Assembly (NCBI GenBank): GCA_027064165.1
Contig: JAMOQE010000013.1
Span: 1 to 61,974, forward strand
Length of the DNA stretch: 61,974 nt
Source of the DNA: Thermodesulfatator sp.
Lineage (GTDB): Bacteria; Desulfobacterota; Thermodesulfobacteria; Thermodesulfobacteriales; Thermodesulfobacteriaceae
Reading direction: 5' to 3'
Each line of letters begins with the position of its first letter. Positions within the stretch are counted from its first letter, which is position 1. This document shows positions 6,189 through 46,372 of this stretch, piece by piece. The position numbers and the translations under genes were made by a program. Below the pieces are notes generated by a model. The model saw only the letters and a program-made list of their open reading frames with translations. It was not told the DNA's origin and did no database searches.

Positions 6189-6932
6189 TTAATGAAACTT
6201 TATCCAAACAAGAGCTGCTAAGAGAATTCTATAAAATACAAATGGATAAAGAGTATGCCGTTTTAAAAAAGGGATTAAAAAACTTATAGCAAGAAAACTA
6301 AAAATTGCAGAGGATAAAAAGCCTATACCTGCCACATTTAAGGCTATAACGCCGTGGTTTAACATTTTTAGGCCCTCATAGCATCCAGCGCCTAAAATAA
6401 GTGGAGCACCCACTATAAAAGAAAATCTTGCAGCCTCTTCCCTTTTCAAACCCACAAAGAGACCTGCAGAAATGGTTATTCCACTCCTTGAAGTACCGGG
6501 AATAATAGCAAAGCTCTGAAAAATGCCAATAACAAGTGCTCTTAGCGGACCAAGCTCCTGTGAAAAAAATCTTTTTTTGCCCAGCTTTTCTCCTAAAATC
6601 ATGGGGAAACTCATCAAGAATAACATAAGAGCTACTATTTTAGGAGTTCTAAAGTAAGCAGAAACCACGTCTTCCAGAAAAAAACCAGCCAGAGCACCTG
6701 GTAAAAAGGCAATAAGTACCAGCCATTTCAAGTGCCATATTTCTTTGAGCTCTTTTCTAAAGTAAACCAATATCGCCAAAAAAGAACCGAGATGAATAAA
6801 AGCATCAAAAGACAAACAGGAAGGAATATGGAAAAAACTGGAAGCCAGAATAAGATGACCTGAACTTGATATAGGAAGAAATTCTGTTAGTCCCTGAATG
6901 GCTCCCAGAATAAAGGCCTGAAAAACATGCAT
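6189..6932 (-). CDS. uppP: Undecaprenyl-diphosphatase
   Basis: A 247-residue polytopic membrane enzyme of the BacA/UppP family that dephosphorylates undecaprenyl diphosphate, recycling the lipid carrier for cell-wall synthesis. Signatures are QGLTEFLPISSSGHL near the N-terminus and PGTSRSGIT in the middle, the two conserved active-site segments. Seven or eight hydrophobic helices fill the rest. It lies in the same run as murA, so two cell-wall steps are probably co-transcribed. Confidence 0.95.
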   Translation of the reverse strand: MHVFQAFILGAIQGLTEFLPISSSGHLILASSFFHIPSCLSFDAFIHLGSFLAILVYFRKELKEIWHLKWLVLIAFLPGALAGFFLEDVVSAYFRTPKIVALMLFLMSFPMILGEKLGKKRFFSQELGPLRALVIGIFQSFAIIPGTSRSGITISAGLFVGLKREEAARFSFIVGAPLILGAGCYEGLKMLNHGVIALNVAGIGFLSSAIFSFLAISFLIPFLKRHTLYPFVFYRILLAALVWIKFH

Positions 6933-6942
6933 TTTTATTTTC

Positions 6943-7899
6943 CTATAAATATTTCTTTTTCCGAAAAATAATAAACAGTAAAATACAAATTACGAGAACT
7001 ATTATATTGACTATATAAAAAGCATGAGGGGTATGCTTAAAAGGAGGTAGGTCCTGAAGTGGAAGAGGGATATTCATTCCATACAGACTATAAACAATGG
7101 TAGGAATGGAAATAATAATAGCCATACTTGCCAAAAATTTCATTATCACATTGACATTGTTATTAATAATAGAAGCATAAGCATCCATAGTATTGGTTAA
7201 GATGTCAGTAAATATCCTTGCCATTTCTATAGCCTGCTTATTTTCAATCTGCACATCTTCAAGCAGCTCCTCTTCTTCTTCTGTAAGACGAAGATATCTA
7301 CCACTTTGAAGCTTTATAAGGACCATATCATTGCCCTGAAGTGATGTATTAAAATAAGTTAAACTCTTTTCCAGACTAAGCATTTTTAAAAATTCTTCGT
7401 TCTCAAGTGCCTTGAAGAGTCTCTCTTCATATTCTTCAATTACCCGGTCCATGTGCCTCAAAAATTTTATGTAAAGGGTGGTAATACTTAGAAAAAAATT
7501 GAGAATAAAACTTACTGGCTGACTGAGATCAAAATTTCTATACTTATTCATATAAGAAATAAATTCTTCAAAAATAGGATGCTCTTTAAGACACACTGTA
7601 ACTATATTTTCTTCAGTCAAAATAATTCCTACAGGTAGGGTTTCATATCTTACATAAAAACCGCTTGAAATGGGGTCTGGTACTCTAAGAATAATCAAGA
7701 TTTGCTGTTCTTCTTTTTCAATACGAGGTCTCTCTTCCTCATCAAGGGGATATCTCAGAAATTCTGGAAAAATTTTTAATTTGTTTTCTACATACTGAAG
7801 TTCCTTATCCGTGGGATTAAATAGACATACCCAGGTATGTTCTTTTAAATCTTCTACAGGCACAAGAAGGCCTTTTTCTGAACCATAGATCCTGAGCAT
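6943..7899 (-). CDS. corA: CorA-type magnesium/divalent metal channel
   Basis: A 318-residue inner-membrane transporter. A long soluble, largely helical N-terminal region is followed by two C-terminal membrane helices joined by YGMNIPLP, the GMN selectivity signature of CorA channels. A Lys/Arg-rich C-terminal tail (FRKKKYL) is typical of the family. It starts two bases after the stop of the upstream pilC-like gene, so it is part of the same transcript. Confidence 0.93.
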   Translation of the reverse strand: MLRIYGSEKGLLVPVEDLKEHTWVCLFNPTDKELQYVENKLKIFPEFLRYPLDEEERPRIEKEEQQILIILRVPDPISSGFYVRYETLPVGIILTEENIVTVCLKEHPIFEEFISYMNKYRNFDLSQPVSFILNFFLSITTLYIKFLRHMDRVIEEYEERLFKALENEEFLKMLSLEKSLTYFNTSLQGNDMVLIKLQSGRYLRLTEEEEELLEDVQIENKQAIEMARIFTDILTNTMDAYASIINNNVNVIMKFLASMAIIISIPTIVYSLYGMNIPLPLQDLPPFKHTPHAFYIVNIIVLVICILLFIIFRKKKYL

Positions 7900-9109: not shown

Positions 9110-10609
<1,500 letters not shown>

Positions 10610-11815
10610 TTAATTATATTCTCTTAATAAAGAAAGTAAAGTAGCTTCTAAAATTCCGTACTCACTGATAAGTAATTCTTCTTTTTTAAACAGATTTAAA
10701 AGTTCCAGATAAATTGTAAGCCCCGGAAGCACTATATCTTCCCTGCCCCGCTCCATACCCCTCATCCTGGCAATTCTTTCTACAGGATAACTGCTGAGTT
10801 TTTCTATAATTTTTTTTAGGCGATCCTTTGTAACCCTGTGGCCGTGCAATCTTTCAAAAATATAACAGGAAAGTTTTAAGTCAAGACTTCCTAAAATACT
10901 CGCTGTACCTCCTGTAATAACAAGCAAATCAGGCTCAATCTCGGGGAGTGCTTTTAAATGGTCCTGAATATAATCTTTTAGAGAACGAAAAGCCTTGGAA
11001 GAAAGGGGATAGCGCAAATTAAAAAGCTCTTTAAGCACTACAGCACCAATTTCTATGCTCTTAGTCCAAAGAGGATTTCCATTTTCCAGGTAAGTAATCT
11101 CTGTGGAACCTCCCCCTACATCAATCACAATAAATTTTTGAGGAAGTTCATTAAGTACTTCTCTAAGCCCGAACTTTACTCCTTCCAGAGTTAAAGAAGC
11201 CTCTTCTTCAGGGCTAAGAACATCTATTTTTATCCCTGTTTCTTCTTGAGCTTTTTTAATAAAATCTTCTGCATTCTTAGCCTTTCTGAAAACAGCTGTG
11301 CCCACAGCCCTAAAATCCTTTACCCCGTGTTTATCCAAAATTTTTTTCATTTTTTTTAAAGCCTGAATACCTCGGTCAAAAGCCTGCTCTGTAATAATTC
11401 CATGATTGACAAGACCCTCTCCAAGCCTCACATTCTCTCTCCAAGAAGCCAAAAAATAAACTTTTCCATTATACCTTTTTCCAAGGATTGTTCTAAAAGA
11501 CTGAGTGCCCAGATCAAAGGCTGCATAAAGAGGTGTGTTAAGCCTTTCTTTCAGCTCTTTACCTGGTTTAAAAACAATTCTTATCTTCTCTCTAATGTAA
11601 TAACGTTGATTATTACGAGGATTCGTAAAGAATACCCCTTTTCCACGCCTTAAATACATCACTCCAAAATCACGAATCTCAATACGATTCCCTTTTATAA
11701 GTTCCTCTTTAATAAATTGGAAAAAAAGCTCTACAATAGCCTCCAGGTCATCCTCTTCCAATTCTGGAAACTTATAACTCAATTTCCTGGCAAGGTCTCC
11801 TTTCTTTATAGACAA
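10610..11815 (-). CDS. IHF/HU DNA-bending domain fused to Ppx/GppA phosphatase
   Basis: A 401-residue two-domain protein. Residues 1-93 are a complete IHF/HU-family fold: helical dimerisation part, GNRIEIRDFG (42-51), a basic beta-arm with the intercalating Pro at 66 (TNPRNNQR) and FKPGKELKERL (82-92). The match is best to IHF-beta. After two or three residues a full Ppx/GppA domain begins: FDLGTQSF (100-107), RLGEGL, LSPEEEA, IDVGGGSTEI, ITGGTASIL and SEYGILEA. That family hydrolyses polyphosphate or converts pppGpp to ppGpp. There is no C-terminal HD domain. The TTG start is supported by aaaggagg 6 bp upstream. rpsA and sppA precede it and guaB follows. Which substrate it uses, and whether it binds DNA, are unknown. 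Confidence 0.9.
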   Translation of the reverse strand: MSIKKGDLARKLSYKFPELEEDDLEAIVELFFQFIKEELIKGNRIEIRDFGVMYLRRGKGVFFTNPRNNQRYYIREKIRIVFKPGKELKERLNTPLYAAFDLGTQSFRTILGKRYNGKVYFLASWRENVRLGEGLVNHGIITEQAFDRGIQALKKMKKILDKHGVKDFRAVGTAVFRKAKNAEDFIKKAQEETGIKIDVLSPEEEASLTLEGVKFGLREVLNELPQKFIVIDVGGGSTEITYLENGNPLWTKSIEIGAVVLKELFNLRYPLSSKAFRSLKDYIQDHLKALPEIEPDLLVITGGTASILGSLDLKLSCYIFERLHGHRVTKDRLKKIIEKLSSYPVERIARMRGMERGREDIVLPGLTIYLELLNLFKKEELLISEYGILEATLLSLLREYN

Positions 11816-11831: not shown

Positions 11832-12698
11832 TCAATTCAACACATACCAGGGAGAAAAATAAAAAAAATTCAAAAAAGACTTTGCTTTACCCTGAAAAAG
11901 TTTCTCTATGAAACTTTTTTCTTTCGGGAAAAATACTATACTGGCCTTTGTTAAATGTGCCTGCCTTTTAGCTTCTTCTACTGCATCCCAGAAATTCCCA
12001 AGTTTGTCAACAAGTCCTATTTTAACAGCTTCTTCTCCTGTAAAAATCCTTCCGTCTGCAATGCTTTTTACCTTTTCAAGTGGCAGACCCCTTGCCCTGG
12101 AAATGGCATTTATAAATTGATTGTGAATATTTTCCACTTTCTTCTCAAGATATTTCCTTTCTTCAGAAGAAAGATTGCGATAAAAAGCCCCTGCATCTTT
12201 AAATTTCCCACTCTTTATTACCTCTGCTTTTACACCCAGCTTTTTCATTAATTCTTCAAAATTGGGAATCTCCAAAATAACCCCTATGCTTCCGGTAATG
12301 GTGCCTGGCAGGGCATAAATGGGCTTACCAGCAAGAGATACATAATAACCTCCAGAAGCTGCCACACTTCCCATAGAAACCACCACAGGTTTTACCCGGG
12401 CTATTTTTTTTAACTCATAATAAATCTCCTGAGAAGCCCCCACAGATCCACCCGGGGACTCCACCCTCACCACTACCGCCTTAATATCACTTCTTCTCAA
12501 CATCTCTCTTAAAGACAGGAGATAATCCCTGGAATCTGCAATTAAGCCCTTTATCTGTAAAACGCCTATCTTCGGTTCACCCAAGCCTTTTTCCTGATAA
12601 AAAAATAAAATAAAACTCAAAACAAAACTCAAAAAAAGAAAAAAAAGCACAATAGCCCCTAAAAAAGAAAGCCCATAAAGCAACCATGTTCTTTTCAC
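11832..12698 (-). CDS. sppA: Signal peptide peptidase SppA, S49 family
   Basis: A 288-residue membrane-anchored serine protease that degrades cleaved signal peptides. One N-terminal membrane helix (about 6-34) is followed by the protease domain. MGSVAASGG puts the nucleophile Ser at 115, and FKD puts the general-base Lys at 167; this 52-residue spacing equals that of Ser147 and Lys199 in the short Bacillus enzyme. It starts at a GTG overlapping the rpsA stop by 4 bp. The order rpsA-sppA-IHF is common in delta-proteobacterial lineages. Confidence 0.95.
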   Translation of the reverse strand: MKRTWLLYGLSFLGAIVLFFLFLSFVLSFILFFYQEKGLGEPKIGVLQIKGLIADSRDYLLSLREMLRRSDIKAVVVRVESPGGSVGASQEIYYELKKIARVKPVVVSMGSVAASGGYYVSLAGKPIYALPGTITGSIGVILEIPNFEELMKKLGVKAEVIKSGKFKDAGAFYRNLSSEERKYLEKKVENIHNQFINAISRARGLPLEKVKSIADGRIFTGEEAVKIGLVDKLGNFWDAVEEAKRQAHLTKASIVFFPKEKSFIEKLFQGKAKSFLNFFYFSPWYVLN

Positions 12699-14371
12699 TT
12701 ATTCTCCCCCTTTAAGGCCTGAAGAAGCACTTCTCCCAAGGTAAAACCGGAACGACTGAATGCCTGTCTTTTATATTCCTCTAACTGCCTTTTTTCCTGA
12801 TTCTTTTTGTAACGCAGATGAGAAAGAGTAATTGTTCTCTTTTCTGGATCAACTTTTTCCAGAACCACCTTTATCTTCTGGCCGGGTTTAAGTTCAAATT
12901 CTGGCTTTCTGGGATTTTCCCAGACTTCTGAAAAAGGAAGAAAGCCTTCCAGATCTTCTGTAATTTCCACTATAAAGCCTTTTTCTACCTCCTTTTTTAC
13001 TTTCACCTCCAGCTCATCTCCCTCTTTGTGAGAAGAGGCAAACTCTTTAAAAGGATCAGGCACCAGATGTTTTATGCTAAGAGAAAGCTTCTTTTTCTGA
13101 GGATCTATTTCAAGGACAGCAGCCTTTACAGGATCTCCCACCTTAAAAAGTTCTTTCAGGTTCCCTATCCTTTTCCACGAAACATTGGAAACATGGACAA
13201 AGCCCTCAACCCCTTCCTCAACTTCCACAAAAACACCAAAATCCTTGATAGCAGTAACTTTCCCTTCTACCACATCTCCTGGCTTTAAGGCTTCGGCTAT
13301 TTTTTCCCATGGACTGGGTTCAAGCCTTTTAAGGCTCAAAGTAAGCCTCCTCTTCTCAGGGTCAAGGGCTATAATTACTGCCTCAACAAGATCCCCTTCT
13401 TCAAATACATCAGAAGGCCTGACCTTTCTCCTCCAGGATACTTCACTTGCCGGAATAAGGCCCTCTACTCCCGGTTCAAGCTCCACAAAAGCACCAAAAT
13501 TAAAAATACCTACCACTTTTCCTTTAACCCTATCTCCCTCTTTGTATTTTTCAGGCACTTTTTCCCAGGGATCAGGCTCCAAGGCCTTTATACTGATCCT
13601 GGCTTTTGCCTTTACCTCATCAAAAGAAAGTACTTTTGCTTTTACCCTATCCCCAGGTTTTAAAGCCTCTTCAGGATGTTTAATTCTCTGCCAGGAAAGT
13701 TCCCTAAAAGGCAGAAAAGCCAGCAGCACCCCATCTAAATCTACAAGGAAGCCTCCTTCTACCCTGCTTTTTACTATTCCCTCAATTACTCCACCCTCTT
13801 TAAGCACTTTATAAAGGGCCTCTTTCTTTTCCTTAAACTCTTCTTCCAGCACTATTTTTCTACTTACAACAAAGTTTTTACCCTTTTCCAGTGAAAGAAT
13901 CTTTACCTCAAAAATCTGACCTACTATTCTGTCCGGAGAAGGGGATTTTTTCTTAAAATAGGATTGGGAAAAAGGGAGAAATCCTTCAAGCATATCTTCG
14001 TAAACTACTCTATAACCACCCTTAACACGGGACTTAACTTTTACTAAAATGGACTTTCCTTCTTCAAAAGCCTTTTCAAGCTCTTTCCAGAGGCGCTTTT
14101 CAAGGAGTCTTTTTACTGAAAGAAGATAAGACCCAGAAGGTAATTTTTTTACAACAAGGGCCTCCAGTGTGTCACCTGGATTGAGATAGTAGCTCCCGTC
14201 TTCCTTTTTTATTTCAGAAATGGGAAGTAGGGCTTCCTGCTTTCCTCCAATGTCCACAAAGGCATAGTCCTGACTTATCTGCACAAGGACTCCTTCAATC
14301 ACCTCTCCAGTTTTAAAAGTTCTTCCTGCTTTTTCTAAATACTCTTCAAGCTCTTTCTTCCAATCCTCCAT
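12695..14371 (-). CDS. rpsA: Ribosomal protein S1
   Basis: A 558-residue protein with six S1 (OB-fold) repeats, at about 18-85, 103-170, 189-259, 275-346, 362-433 and 448-517. Repeats 4 and 5 are the most canonical, with VKGKVVGIFNFGAFVELE and VEGKVTAIKDFGVFVEVE. S1 binds mRNA on the small subunit and helps initiation on structured or weakly ribosome-bound messages. Six repeats is the usual proteobacterial-type length. It is followed with a 4-bp overlap by sppA. Confidence 0.95.
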   Translation of the reverse strand: MEDWKKELEEYLEKAGRTFKTGEVIEGVLVQISQDYAFVDIGGKQEALLPISEIKKEDGSYYLNPGDTLEALVVKKLPSGSYLLSVKRLLEKRLWKELEKAFEEGKSILVKVKSRVKGGYRVVYEDMLEGFLPFSQSYFKKKSPSPDRIVGQIFEVKILSLEKGKNFVVSRKIVLEEEFKEKKEALYKVLKEGGVIEGIVKSRVEGGFLVDLDGVLLAFLPFRELSWQRIKHPEEALKPGDRVKAKVLSFDEVKAKARISIKALEPDPWEKVPEKYKEGDRVKGKVVGIFNFGAFVELEPGVEGLIPASEVSWRRKVRPSDVFEEGDLVEAVIIALDPEKRRLTLSLKRLEPSPWEKIAEALKPGDVVEGKVTAIKDFGVFVEVEEGVEGFVHVSNVSWKRIGNLKELFKVGDPVKAAVLEIDPQKKKLSLSIKHLVPDPFKEFASSHKEGDELEVKVKKEVEKGFIVEITEDLEGFLPFSEVWENPRKPEFELKPGQKIKVVLEKVDPEKRTITLSHLRYKKNQEKRQLEEYKRQAFSRSGFTLGEVLLQALKGENK

Positions 14372-14398: not shown

Positions 14399-15715
14399 TC
14401 ATATCTTAATTGAAAAAGCTCCATTCTTCAAGAGCTTTTTCACAAACTGCACCTCATCTTCTTTGCTTTTTATTCTCCCTGCAAAGATTTCTTTTTTAAT
14501 AAGCTTTAAACACTCCCCAATTGCTTTTCCTTCCGGTATGCCAAGAGCTTTAAGCTCTTTTCCCGTAAGAGAAGGCTTAATTTTTGAGTATCTTTTTAAA
14601 AATAGTTCTACTTCTTTCCAGAATCCTTTTTTTACTGCCAGAAAAGGAAGCACCTCTATTGTAACTCTTTCAAGAAAAGATACTCTTTCGTATGGCTCTT
14701 TGATTTTATTAAACTTCAAAATTACTCCTTTTATAGAACTCCCAAGCCGCTCTACCTCCTCCTTACTAAATCCAAGTCTTGGCGCATCCCTTAGGTCATC
14801 TCCTGCAAAACAGAGAAGATAAGCCTTTTTTCTTTCTCTTTCTTTAAATTCATGGGAAAATTCTCCAAAAAACCTGGCAATTCCCTCTATAAGTTCTTTT
14901 TTAACTTCCAAATTACAGGCTTCAAAGATTCCCAGATCTAACACATCCTTTAAAAGGACAGGCAAATTCTCAAGAGGTTCTTTCTTAAGAAAATTATAAA
15001 GTTCGGCACCGAGCCTGCTTCCTGAAAGTTTCAAAAAGGCCTTTTTCGCAAAAGCCTCTTCAAGGGCTTTAATAAACTTTTTATCATACTCAAAACCAAA
15101 TCTCACCCTGTATCTAACTCCTCTAAAAGCCCGCGTGGGATCCTCCACAAAAGAATCCTCTTTTAAAGGCTTCACGAGCCTTTTTCTTAAGTCTTCTTTT
15201 CCTTTGTAAAGGTCTATCACGACTTCTTCAAAAGGTGGAGTAAGGCCATAGATCATGGAGTTTATGGTGAAGTCCCTTCTTTTTATATCATCCAGAAAGT
15301 TTGAGGGATAAACAATGGGTAATGCTGCAACTTCTGGATATTTTTCCTTGCGTGCGGTTATAAAATCTACCAAAACTTTTTCTCCCTGAGCTCCAAATTC
15401 TACCTTGGCTGTAAGAAACTGAGACTTAAAAAGGAGCCTTCCTGGCACTTTTTTAAAAAGCTCATCAAGAAAAGAAAAAAGATCACCCTGCAATACCATG
15501 TCAAGATCCTGAGTAATGGCTTTGAGATAATAGTCTCTAACCACTCCCCCTGCAAAATAGAGAAATAGCCCTTTTCCCTTGGCAAGTTTTCTTGCCTCTT
15601 CAATTATCTGAAAAAAAAGTGGAGAAGCGTTAAACACCCGGAAAAAATCTTCAAAAGGAATTTTCTCTATTTCTGCTTTTTCAGGGAGCTTAGCTTCTTG
15701 GATGGTATTTATCAT
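14399..15715 (-). CDS. CCA-type tRNA nucleotidyltransferase, copy 1 (no HD domain)
   Basis: A 438-residue class II nucleotidyltransferase of the CCA-adding and poly(A) polymerase superfamily. It has FAGGVVRDYYL (54-64), the metal-binding DLD (70-72), RRDFTINS (about 145-152) and VEDPTRAFRGVRYRVRFGF. The C-terminal helical region ends with the LTGKELKALGIPEGKAIGE segment seen in bacterial A-adding and CCA-adding enzymes, but no HD phosphohydrolase motif is present. A paralog with an HD domain lies at 44909-46372. The pair may divide CC and A addition, as known from Aquifex and Deinococcus; which does which is not decided here. The start is ATG with aaggaggt. Confidence 0.88.
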   Translation of the reverse strand: MINTIQEAKLPEKAEIEKIPFEDFFRVFNASPLFFQIIEEARKLAKGKGLFLYFAGGVVRDYYLKAITQDLDMVLQGDLFSFLDELFKKVPGRLLFKSQFLTAKVEFGAQGEKVLVDFITARKEKYPEVAALPIVYPSNFLDDIKRRDFTINSMIYGLTPPFEEVVIDLYKGKEDLRKRLVKPLKEDSFVEDPTRAFRGVRYRVRFGFEYDKKFIKALEEAFAKKAFLKLSGSRLGAELYNFLKKEPLENLPVLLKDVLDLGIFEACNLEVKKELIEGIARFFGEFSHEFKERERKKAYLLCFAGDDLRDAPRLGFSKEEVERLGSSIKGVILKFNKIKEPYERVSFLERVTIEVLPFLAVKKGFWKEVELFLKRYSKIKPSLTGKELKALGIPEGKAIGECLKLIKKEIFAGRIKSKEDEVQFVKKLLKNGAFSIKI

Positions 15716-43986: not shown

Positions 43987-44919
43987 TTAATTTTCAATTT
44001 TTACAAGCTTTCCCTGATAAAGCTCTCTTTCACGAAATCTTTTTCTTATCAAATTGATAACTTCCATCTTTTTGGCCACCCAAATAGGTGCTAAAATTTC
44101 TTCCTCTCTTGCCTCTGAACAAACCCTGTGAATCACTACATCCGAAGGCAGATATGCTATTGCTTCAACCACAAGATCTACATACTCCTCAAGTTCTATT
44201 GGCTTATACTCACCTTTCTGATAAAGCTCTGCCATTTTTGTGCCTTTGACTATGTAAAGGGCATGAAATTTTATTCCATCTATTCCCAGGCTGGCAAGTG
44301 TTTTTACTGTCTCAAGCATCATTTCCCTATTCTCTCCAGGAAGTCCAAAAATTATATGCACCACCACAGGAAAGCCCTCTTTCTTAAGAAGTGCGTGAGC
44401 CCTTAAGAAGTCTTCAAAAGTGTGCCCCCTATTAATCCGCTTCAGGGTTTCATCATGCACACTCTGCACCCCAAGCTCAAGCCAGACATACTTTCCTTTA
44501 TCCCTGTAACTCTTTAAAAGCTCAACCACATCTTTATTTATACAATCAGGCCTTGTGCCTATTGCCATCCCTGCAATGGAATCTTTTAAAAACACAAGAT
44601 CATAGGCTTTTTTTAATTTTTCAATAGGTCCATAGGTATTACAAAAAGACTGAAAGTAAAGAATAAACTTGCGGAAGCCCTTTTTCTCAAATCTTTCACT
44701 AAAAAGCCTTATTTGTTCTTCAAGACTATAGCCTTTTGCCCAAAGCCCTGTGCCAGAGCCTTTGGGGTCACAATAGATACAACCTCCATAACCTTTTGTA
44801 CCATCTCTATTGGGACAGCTAAACCCTGCGTCAAGAGGAATTTTTTTTACCTTCTCTCCGAACTTTTCTTTTAAAAATCTATTCAGAGTGTAATAAGGAT
44901 CCTTCGGGCTAAACCTCAT
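43987..44919 (-). CDS. Radical SAM protein, YhcC family (TIGR01212)
   Basis: A protein of about 310 residues with the atypical radical SAM signature of this family: FSCPNRDG followed by GGCIYC (Cys 35, 47, 50). It carries TIGR01212/COG1242 features such as LGVQS and GLPGENREMM. The biological substrate is not known. The frame is open to 44952 inside the upstream gene, but the ATG at 44919 has GGAG 6 bases before it and is chosen. It overlaps the stop of the upstream nucleotidyltransferase gene by 11 bp. Confidence 0.88.
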   Translation of the reverse strand: MRFSPKDPYYTLNRFLKEKFGEKVKKIPLDAGFSCPNRDGTKGYGGCIYCDPKGSGTGLWAKGYSLEEQIRLFSERFEKKGFRKFILYFQSFCNTYGPIEKLKKAYDLVFLKDSIAGMAIGTRPDCINKDVVELLKSYRDKGKYVWLELGVQSVHDETLKRINRGHTFEDFLRAHALLKKEGFPVVVHIIFGLPGENREMMLETVKTLASLGIDGIKFHALYIVKGTKMAELYQKGEYKPIELEEYVDLVVEAIAYLPSDVVIHRVCSEAREEEILAPIWVAKKMEVINLIRKRFRERELYQGKLVKIEN

Positions 44920-46372
44920 CCTTAGCTCCGTATTTTTCCAATACAAAGTCAATAGCTTCTTCCCTGGTTCTTATTCTACCGGCAAGGGCTTCAACTTCCA
45001 CATCCTCAAGTATTTTTTTAAAAATAGGCCCGGGTTTAAAACCAAGCTTTATAAGATCGTGTCCTGTAATCAGCCTGGGTTTCTTTTTCTTTTCCTCAAG
45101 TTCTTTTTTTAACTCAAACAACTCACAAAAAAATGCCTTTAATCTCTCCTCGTAATCAGGCTCTTTGTCAGGCCCCCTGCTGGCAAGAGAGTCTGCCATG
45201 GCAACCACAAAAAGCCCTTCAAGATGCGGCACATCTCTTAAAAGATTCCTTTTAGCCCTGAGAGTAAGCCTTCCAGCCTCTTTTTCGTTTAAAAGATGCA
45301 CCGGCCTCATGTGAGCTCTGACGAGAAGGCAAACCATATCAATTATATCTCCCTTAAACCTCCACCTCTCTCCCATCTCTCTGAAAAGCTCTGCAGAAAC
45401 CTTTTCATGGCCGTAAAAAGTAATCCTTTTTTCTCCGTTTTCCTCTTTTTCAGCAAAAGTATAACCCTTACCAAGATCATGAAAAAGACTTGCAAGTTTT
45501 ACGCTCACCACAAAGTCCTCGTCCTGAGGAAGGGTGTGAAGCACAGGAGAAAGAAATTCCTCTGGCTTTTTAAGAATTTCTTCTGCCCACCCCAGGGACT
45601 CCATCATGTGTCCCCACACATCAAGATGATGAAAACCAGGTTGAGGAACTCCCTTGCACTCTTTAATTTCGGGAAAAACTTCTTCAAGCACCCCATCCTC
45701 ATCCATCAATTTAAAGCACTCATAAGCCCTCTCTGAAACAAGAATTCTCATAAGTTCATAGTTTACCCTTTCAGGAGAGCAGAGCACAAGGAGCTTTTTG
45801 TTTCTGGCAAACATAGCCCTGGTCAGGGCTTCTATTTCTCCAAAGCCCTCTGCAAAAAAACGATAACCCCTTAAAATCCTTAAAGGATCCTGCTGTATAT
45901 TATCTTCAGAAATAGCCCGAATTATTTTTTCTTGAATATCCTTTAGCCCTCCCAGAGGATCAATAAAGGAAAAGGCTTCCTTTTTAAAAAGCTCTTTTAC
46001 CGGAAGAGCAAAGGCATTTATGGTAAAATCCCTTTGTCTAAGATCATCTTCAATAGAACCTCCTTTAAGCTCAGTGAAGTCCAGGGTAAAATCCTTCCCT
46101 GCCACCCTGAATATACCAAAAATTCGTGAAAGAGGTACAAATTTAAGACCAAGCTTTTCTGCAGCAAATTGGGCAAAGTTTTCTGCATTTTTTAAAGCAA
46201 AGTCAAGGTCAAAAATTTTGCGCTCAAAAAAAAGATCTCTCAGACATCCTCCAACAAGATAAAAGTCTTCTCTAAATCTAAACTTTCGCAAAAGTAAAAA
46301 AAGCCTATTTTTTACCTCAGAATTTATTCCAAGACTTTGCCAAAAACTCTTAGAATCCAACTTATTTCTCAA
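44909..46372 (-). CDS. CCA-type tRNA nucleotidyltransferase, copy 2, with HD domain
   Basis: A 487-residue class II nucleotidyltransferase. It has YLVGGCLRDLFF (38-49), the metal-binding DLD (55-57), RQRDFTINAFAL, QQDPLRILRGYRFF and SPERVNYELMRIL. An HD domain (LFHDLGKGY, about 297) follows, and the C-terminus ends with LITGHDLIKLGFKPGPIF. It differs from copy 1 (14399-15715) in having the HD domain and the ERxxxEL segment. It may be the CC-adding or full CCA-adding enzyme. The start is a TTG without a clear Shine-Dalgarno; another TTG at 46360 is possible. Confidence 0.87.
   Translation of the reverse strand: MRNKLDSKSFWQSLGINSEVKNRLFLLLRKFRFREDFYLVGGCLRDLFFERKIFDLDFALKNAENFAQFAAEKLGLKFVPLSRIFGIFRVAGKDFTLDFTELKGGSIEDDLRQRDFTINAFALPVKELFKKEAFSFIDPLGGLKDIQEKIIRAISEDNIQQDPLRILRGYRFFAEGFGEIEALTRAMFARNKKLLVLCSPERVNYELMRILVSERAYECFKLMDEDGVLEEVFPEIKECKGVPQPGFHHLDVWGHMMESLGWAEEILKKPEEFLSPVLHTLPQDEDFVVSVKLASLFHDLGKGYTFAEKEENGEKRITFYGHEKVSAELFREMGERWRFKGDIIDMVCLLVRAHMRPVHLLNEKEAGRLTLRAKRNLLRDVPHLEGLFVVAMADSLASRGPDKEPDYEERLKAFFCELFELKKELEEKKKKPRLITGHDLIKLGFKPGPIFKKILEDVEVEALAGRIRTREEAIDFVLEKYGAKDEV

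Follow-up and report, generated by a model that had tools for sequence, protein, structure and literature searches.

The question raised by this locus is whether an IHF subunit and a Ppx/GppA phosphatase (the type of enzyme that trims pppGpp, a signal of starvation, or else polyphosphate, polyP) are encoded there as one protein and, if so, what such a protein might do; to our knowledge, there is no known physical link between IHF, which belongs to nucleoid architecture, and Ppx/GppA, which belongs to the stringent response. The window, by which we mean the whole stretch of DNA analysed, comprises 61,974 nucleotides of contig JAMOQE010000013.1 from Thermodesulfatator sp., in which a first-pass annotation had proposed such a fusion.

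One reading frame and its two domains

The coordinates and the length of 401 codons that had been annotated for the frame were both correct, and the strand proved to be the minus one (Table 1). There, the reading runs uninterrupted over 401 amino acids from a TTG at 11815 to the stop at 10612, the plus strand of the same interval being crowded with stops. The TTG start has a strong Shine–Dalgarno, the sequence preceding it being AAAGGAGG, and the gene begins 16 nt past sppA and finishes 18 nt ahead of the guaB frame. Elsewhere in the window we observed a 597-aa GGDEF protein (diguanylate cyclase; 724–2517, +) and two tRNA-nucleotidyltransferase-type genes, possibly for separate CC- and A-adding enzymes, of which the one at 44909–46372 (−) matched phrog_2244 with an E of 6e-48 and the one at 14399–15715 (−) was judged on sequence only.

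Table 1. Positions of the fused gene, its parts, and its neighbours in the window.
Feature	Positions	Strand	Basis
Fused gene ihfB::ppx/gppA	10610..11815	-	401 codons, TTG start; kept in 39/41 class genomes
IHF-beta domain, residues 1-93	11537..11815	-	PF00216 at 4-93; best NCBIfam model IHF-beta; AF2 fold
Junction, residues 94-96	11528..11536	-	AF2/DSSP; between IHF helix 3 (86-93) and first phosphatase strand (97-102)
Short-form Ppx/GppA phosphatase domain, residues 97-401	10613..11527	-	PF02541; Aquifex Ppx/GppA match; fold matches
Pro66 codon, DNA-intercalating proline (E. coli IHF-beta P64)	11618..11620	-	Invariant 28/28
Glu46-x-Arg48 = IHF-beta E44/R46 specificity residues	11672..11680	-	Invariant 28/28; numbering from E. 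coli IHF-beta alignment
Catalytic Glu205 codon = E112 position of Aquifex Ppx/GppA and Mtb PPX1	11201..11203	-	Invariant 28/28; alignment and PMC3411833
sppA (S49 peptidase), directly upstream	11832..12698	-	Pfam PF01343; order conserved
rpsA (ribosomal protein S1, S1 repeats), upstream of sppA; usual ihfB neighbourhood	12695..14371	-	Pfam S1 E 9e-86
guaB (IMP dehydrogenase), directly downstream; frequent ppx neighbour in phylum	9110..10591	-	Pfam PF00478

The N-terminal half matched PF00216 over residues 4–93 with an E of 2.7e-17 (63.2 bits against a Pfam gathering threshold of 22.4), and the best NCBIfam subfamily for residues 5–94 was IHF-beta (NF001222, 1.5e-17), with alpha at 3.3e-10 and HU giving no match; at 63.6 bits versus 115, this half lies under the NCBIfam equivalog cut-off. 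Its profile scored best against single-chain IHF and IHF-beta, and its AlphaFold2 (AF2) model, taken alone, resembled IHF/HU chains with a TM of 0.76–0.84, the arm strands being present. Among the 28 aligned proteins E46, R48, and P66 were invariant, which residues are equivalent to E44, R46, and P64 of E. coli IHF-beta, and in all the class loci examined the fused gene sat at the ihfB locus near rpsA. The first-pass annotation had described a complete IHF-beta-like domain with Pro66 and an FKPGKEL segment, and all of these were found.

The phosphatase half, for its part, matched PF02541 over residues 116–398 (E 1.2e-56; 192.7 bits against a gathering threshold of 27; profile positions 7–283 of 285), and TIGR03706 of NCBIfam carried its start out to residue 97, in agreement with the complete domain, all motifs retained, that had been annotated from that residue onward. 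The Aquifex Ppx/GppA matched it with an E of 2.6e-37 at 28% identity. The model had the two-domain ASKHA fold, aligning with 3mdq at a Z of 38.0 (2.3 Å, 301 residues) and with the Aquifex structure 1t6d at 34.2, the fold matches to solved Ppx/GppA structures giving overall a Z of 29–40. When the roles of residues were assigned after PMC3411833, R177, the catalytic E205, and the metal ligands D232 and E239 proved invariant in every one of the 28 proteins aligned, so that the loss of active-site residues, which the first-pass annotation had named, in combination with a lack of DNA binding, as evidence that would count against its reading, was seen in no relative. In the first phosphate loop the class has DLGTQ[ST]FR and Aquifex DIGSNSVR, Q105 being class-invariant. 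The C-terminal domains III–IV of the long form are absent: the phosphatase ends at about 305 residues and stays below the long-form equivalog cut-offs.

For the fused chain as a whole, the AF2 model obtained with 28 natural homologues had a pLDDT of 92.4 and a pTM of 0.84 and gave a linker of three residues, where two or three had been predicted; the junction, GKEFKERLNTPFLASLDLG, is conserved among the fused proteins. In close pairs the dN/dS was below 0.3 in each domain. Both domains are thus complete and under purifying selection, with their functional residues invariant. Separate translation of PPX from a start codon within the gene, at the junction, was rejected, inasmuch as the window has no such start with a ribosome site and the relatives have no conserved one. 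A few relatives (L026 of G030, at codon −9 from DLGTQ; L034; L036; L037) do contain, close to the junction, an in-frame TTG or GTG that may have a ribosome site, but these starts are not conserved.

Distribution, copy number, and origin of the fusion

The class Thermodesulfobacteria, represented here by one order and 41 genomes, contains the fusion with the same in-frame junction in 39 genomes of three families and 9 of 10 genera (among the latter Thermodesulfobacterium, Caldimicrobium, Thermosulfurimonas, and Thermodesulfatator), single-contig genomes included. Among the named isolates that carry it are T. hydrogeniphilum, T. thermophilum, T. hveragerdense, Thermosulfurimonas dismutans S95, and Thermodesulfatator autotrophicus. 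Thirty-six copies are unbroken over nearly the full query; the remaining three retain the junction, of which two stop short where their contig ends (G006, G021) and the third is frameshifted within the phosphatase (G034). The two class genomes in which the fusion was not found are both draft MAGs, one 93% complete (G009) and the other 64% (G032). The search for further fused copies that the first-pass annotation had advised was therefore fruitful, and an interruption of the frame between the domains, by a stop or by a frameshift, which would have spoken against the fusion, was looked for in the relatives without being encountered: the fusion is fixed across the class, beyond a single genome. 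The frameshift of G034, a Thermosulfurimonas MAG (L136:3550–4631), is likely an assembly error, because the gene of the isolate S95 is intact.

In 297 genomes drawn from across the phylum, the matches outside the class were confined to the phosphatase part. A scan of genome contigs returned fused copies solely in the Thermodesulfobacteria, with search patterns taken from this clade's phosphatase, so that independent HU–Ppx fusions could escape it. Apparent longer matches outside the class (L122; L107 and L108 of the Geobacteraceae) corresponded to separate genes. A mobile or phage origin was rejected, since the phage and plasmid matches were never full-length, as was a role in defence, for which PADLOC gave no match.

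In this genome the fusion accounts for the single PF02541 match, which result leaves no stand-alone ppx of the kind that had been proposed for a search, and for one of three PF00216 matches, the others being HU (L002) and an IHF-alpha identified by its best model and its canonical locus pheT-ihfA-merR, where the separate alpha gene to be sought was in fact found. In this IHF-alpha (G000:C53, L216:1736–2032, −) a Leu replaces the DNA-intercalating proline (GRNLKTGE). This genome has no Ppx/GppA but the fused one and, as judged from locus and sequence, no other IHF-beta, which latter statement is limited to this genome and its close relatives because other families of the class have additional HU/IHF-type genes, with up to 5–6 PF00216 matches. 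Other full-length Ppx/GppA proteins are absent from nearly every class genome, the exceptions being G031, where a contig is duplicated, one MAG (G026) that has the fused gene twice, and partial fragments that match weakly.

The gene order in the class is rpsA-sppA-[ihfB::ppx]-guaB-pilC. When 113 phosphatase domains were placed in a tree, those of the 28 fused proteins formed one clade (support 100/89; 100% of 200 bootstrap trees), which is most simply explained by a single fusion that was then inherited vertically. As an outgroup we took 62 ppx loci from many families of the phylum outside the class: guaB adjoins ppx in 33 (table count), and rpsA-sppA-ihfB lies ahead of a separate ppx in four (L129, L134, L139, L179). 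In L139 ihfB stops at a TAG and ppx begins 25 nt on, in a different frame; in L129 and L134 the order is rpsA-sppA-ihfB-(yrdC-like gene, opposite strand)-ppx-guaB. Geobacter-like genomes have another ihfB-type gene directly before a separate ppx in a trmA-like locus (L132, L144; with a wider gap in L107 and L108), and in L132 the IHF-beta-type gene (7477–7758) and ppx (6554–7474) are 2 nt apart. Since the pairing is seen at both the rpsA-sppA and the trmA-like loci, it occurs more than once as separate genes; and since the order rpsA-sppA-ihfB-ppx-guaB is found unfused elsewhere in the phylum, the locus itself explains the origin, the best explanation being that the fused gene is the class's ihfB, still in its native place by rpsA-sppA and joined there to the ppx/gppA next to it.

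Proposed mechanism, its substrate, and the rival readings

The first-pass annotation had imagined a DNA-bound dimer of fused chains; the existence of a separate ihfA, however, makes an alpha/beta heterodimer with one phosphatase the more probable DNA-bound form. In 9 of 9 genus members examined the free IHF-alpha is without the intercalating proline (GRN-L/F), whereas all 28 aligned fused proteins retain Pro66 in their beta domain, so that, if the two are paired, the fused chain alone could insert a proline. Sigma-54, a frequent IHF client, was present in 30 of 30 high-quality class genomes. From this result and from the working IHF alpha/beta pair of Desulfovibrio (PMC3897727) a conventional IHF role is to be expected of the DNA-binding half.

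The mechanism that we favour, and to which we would grant an even chance, places an alpha/fused-beta heterodimer on DNA and thereby tethers a pppGpp phosphohydrolase to the nucleoid. DNA would be bent by the IHF-beta domain in a pair with the separately encoded IHF-alpha (or with another copy of itself), and the rigid three-residue joint would carry a GppA-core-type phosphohydrolase, which enzyme would take the 5' phosphate off the pppGpp made by the single long Rel, alarmone turnover or sensing being thereby located at the nucleoid. We further hypothesize a coupling of ligand to DNA binding, in which the ligand-driven closure of the ASKHA-fold phosphatase could alter DNA binding or, alternatively, the dimerisation of the phosphatase could bridge two IHF-bound sites. 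That pppGpp or ppGpp binding or hydrolysis directly alters IHF binding or bending, or that DNA binding alters the hydrolysis, we consider somewhat unlikely; if true, nucleoid structure would read the stringent-response state without RNA polymerase or DksA, and the proline-less IHF-alpha of the genus would leave the fused subunit as the sole intercalator and hence the controller of the bend.

The main rival, which we find credible though short of an even chance, is that operon neighbours passively fused upon losing a stop and a short spacer, and that the domains do their ordinary jobs uncoupled, the linkage only fixing a 1:1 ratio. A small deletion would suffice for such a fusion because ihfB and ppx are adjacent in relatives, as the 25-nt gap of L139 and the order in L129 and L134 illustrate, and the conservation that we observed is separate for each domain; but no split has occurred in 39 genomes at the depth of a class, the junction is conserved, and internal starts with a ribosome site are not. 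Moreover, IHF is normally abundant and phosphatases are scarce, in which circumstance an obligatory 1:1 expression would be odd.

With respect to the substrate in the favoured heterodimer, RelA/SpoT was found in 39 of the 41 class genomes, the Rel of this genome being a full HD-synthetase-TGS-ACT protein, whereas PPK1 and above-cut-off PPK2 were each found in 0 of 41 by a search that did give matches in several control genomes. Because no polyphosphate kinase family was found and full-length Rel is near-universal, the substrate is more likely to be pppGpp or another nucleotide than polyP, which the first-pass annotation had also entertained and which now seems improbable. The downstream guaB belongs to the GTP/(p)ppGpp pathway, and the 293-residue core of the V. 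cholerae GppA is enough for the conversion of pppGpp to ppGpp in vivo (PMC7552824). Rel, the PPK absence, guaB, and the V. cholerae core would together favour a pppGpp-type phosphohydrolase over an exopolyphosphatase, the absence of the known polyP kinases still being compatible with other kinases or imported polyP. Family membership leaves the substrate unfixed, as the lack of pppGpp hydrolysis by the short M. tuberculosis Ppx-GppA proteins illustrates (PMC3411833); the H. pylori Ppx/GppA, for its part, prefers polyP about 27-fold over pppGpp (PMC7552824).

That the phosphatase is mainly a nucleotide sensor, or a hydrolase of ATP, GTP, or another nucleotide, and no pppGpp enzyme appears unlikely to us: the catalytic residues are all retained and the genomic context suggests GTP/(p)ppGpp metabolism, against which stand the ATPase/ADPase activity of the M. 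tuberculosis PPX-GppA homologues, inhibited by pppGpp (PMC3411833), and the class-wide change of the P-loop to GTQ[ST] from the GSNS of Aquifex. A nucleoid-bound exopolyphosphatase clearing polyP from DNA–protein assemblies is very improbable in a class where neither kinase was found, even if the best NCBIfam model for the phosphatase is an exopolyphosphatase-only family (below cut-off) and polyP with Hfq drives the formation of bacterial heterochromatin (PMC10954037). Finally, an artefact of assembly, sequencing, or contamination has a negligible likelihood, since many independent assemblies show the identical fusion and the recurrence of the in-frame junction throughout the class excludes chance or assembly error; the one observation in favour of an artefact, the G034 frameshift, lies within the phosphatase and not at the junction.

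Through the fusion, stress signalling may be tied directly to the chromosome in these heat-loving sulfur bacteria, and one purified protein could tell whether the alarmone or its hydrolysis controls DNA bending. Class genomes nearly always have a Ppx/GppA domain despite the lack of PPK1 and above-cut-off PPK2 in all 41, and would constitute a natural setting for the role of short Ppx/GppA proteins where polyP is not made.

Comparison with known systems

No published description of IHF–Ppx/GppA fusions, or of IHF in the Thermodesulfobacteria, was found in the open-licence literature, in accordance with the novelty that the first-pass annotation had supposed; the architecture, its class-wide fixation, and its sole-copy status in this genome seem to be undescribed in the literature searched, both families being known. 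With the IHF beta subunit (IhfB/HimD; E. coli IHF, PDB 1ihf_B; Desulfovibrio DVU1864) the fusion has in common the HU/IHF fold, the equivalents of the beta-type E44/R46 and of the intercalating proline, the FKPGKEL segment, and the rpsA-linked locus, with ihfA elsewhere in the genome; but the fusion alone bears a 305-residue phosphatase right behind helix 3. The HU-HIG and HU-CCDC81 fusions of Pfam likewise combine an HU/IHF fold with another domain, although the partners differ and the similarity is weak and below cut-off; we know of no other HU-domain fusion with an enzyme of the Ppx/GppA family.

The Aquifex aeolicus Ppx/GppA (PDB 1t6c, 1t6d, 2j4r) is also a short two-domain ASKHA protein with the same active-site layout, but is free-standing, whereas the N-terminus of the fusion's phosphatase is blocked by the IHF-beta, and GTQ[ST] replaces GSNS. 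The GppA/PPX proteins of E. coli, H. pylori, and V. cholerae have the catalytic core in common with the fusion—the core of V. cholerae GppA having 293 residues versus the approximately 305 of the fusion's phosphatase domain—but possess some 190 extra C-terminal residues (domains III–IV), which the fusion is without, and no DNA-binding domain. The separate adjacent ihfB and ppx genes (L139; L132 and L144; L107 and L108; L129 and L134) are the same pair, but encode two proteins, and in L139 and in L129 and L134 they also share with the fusion the rpsA-sppA neighbourhood.
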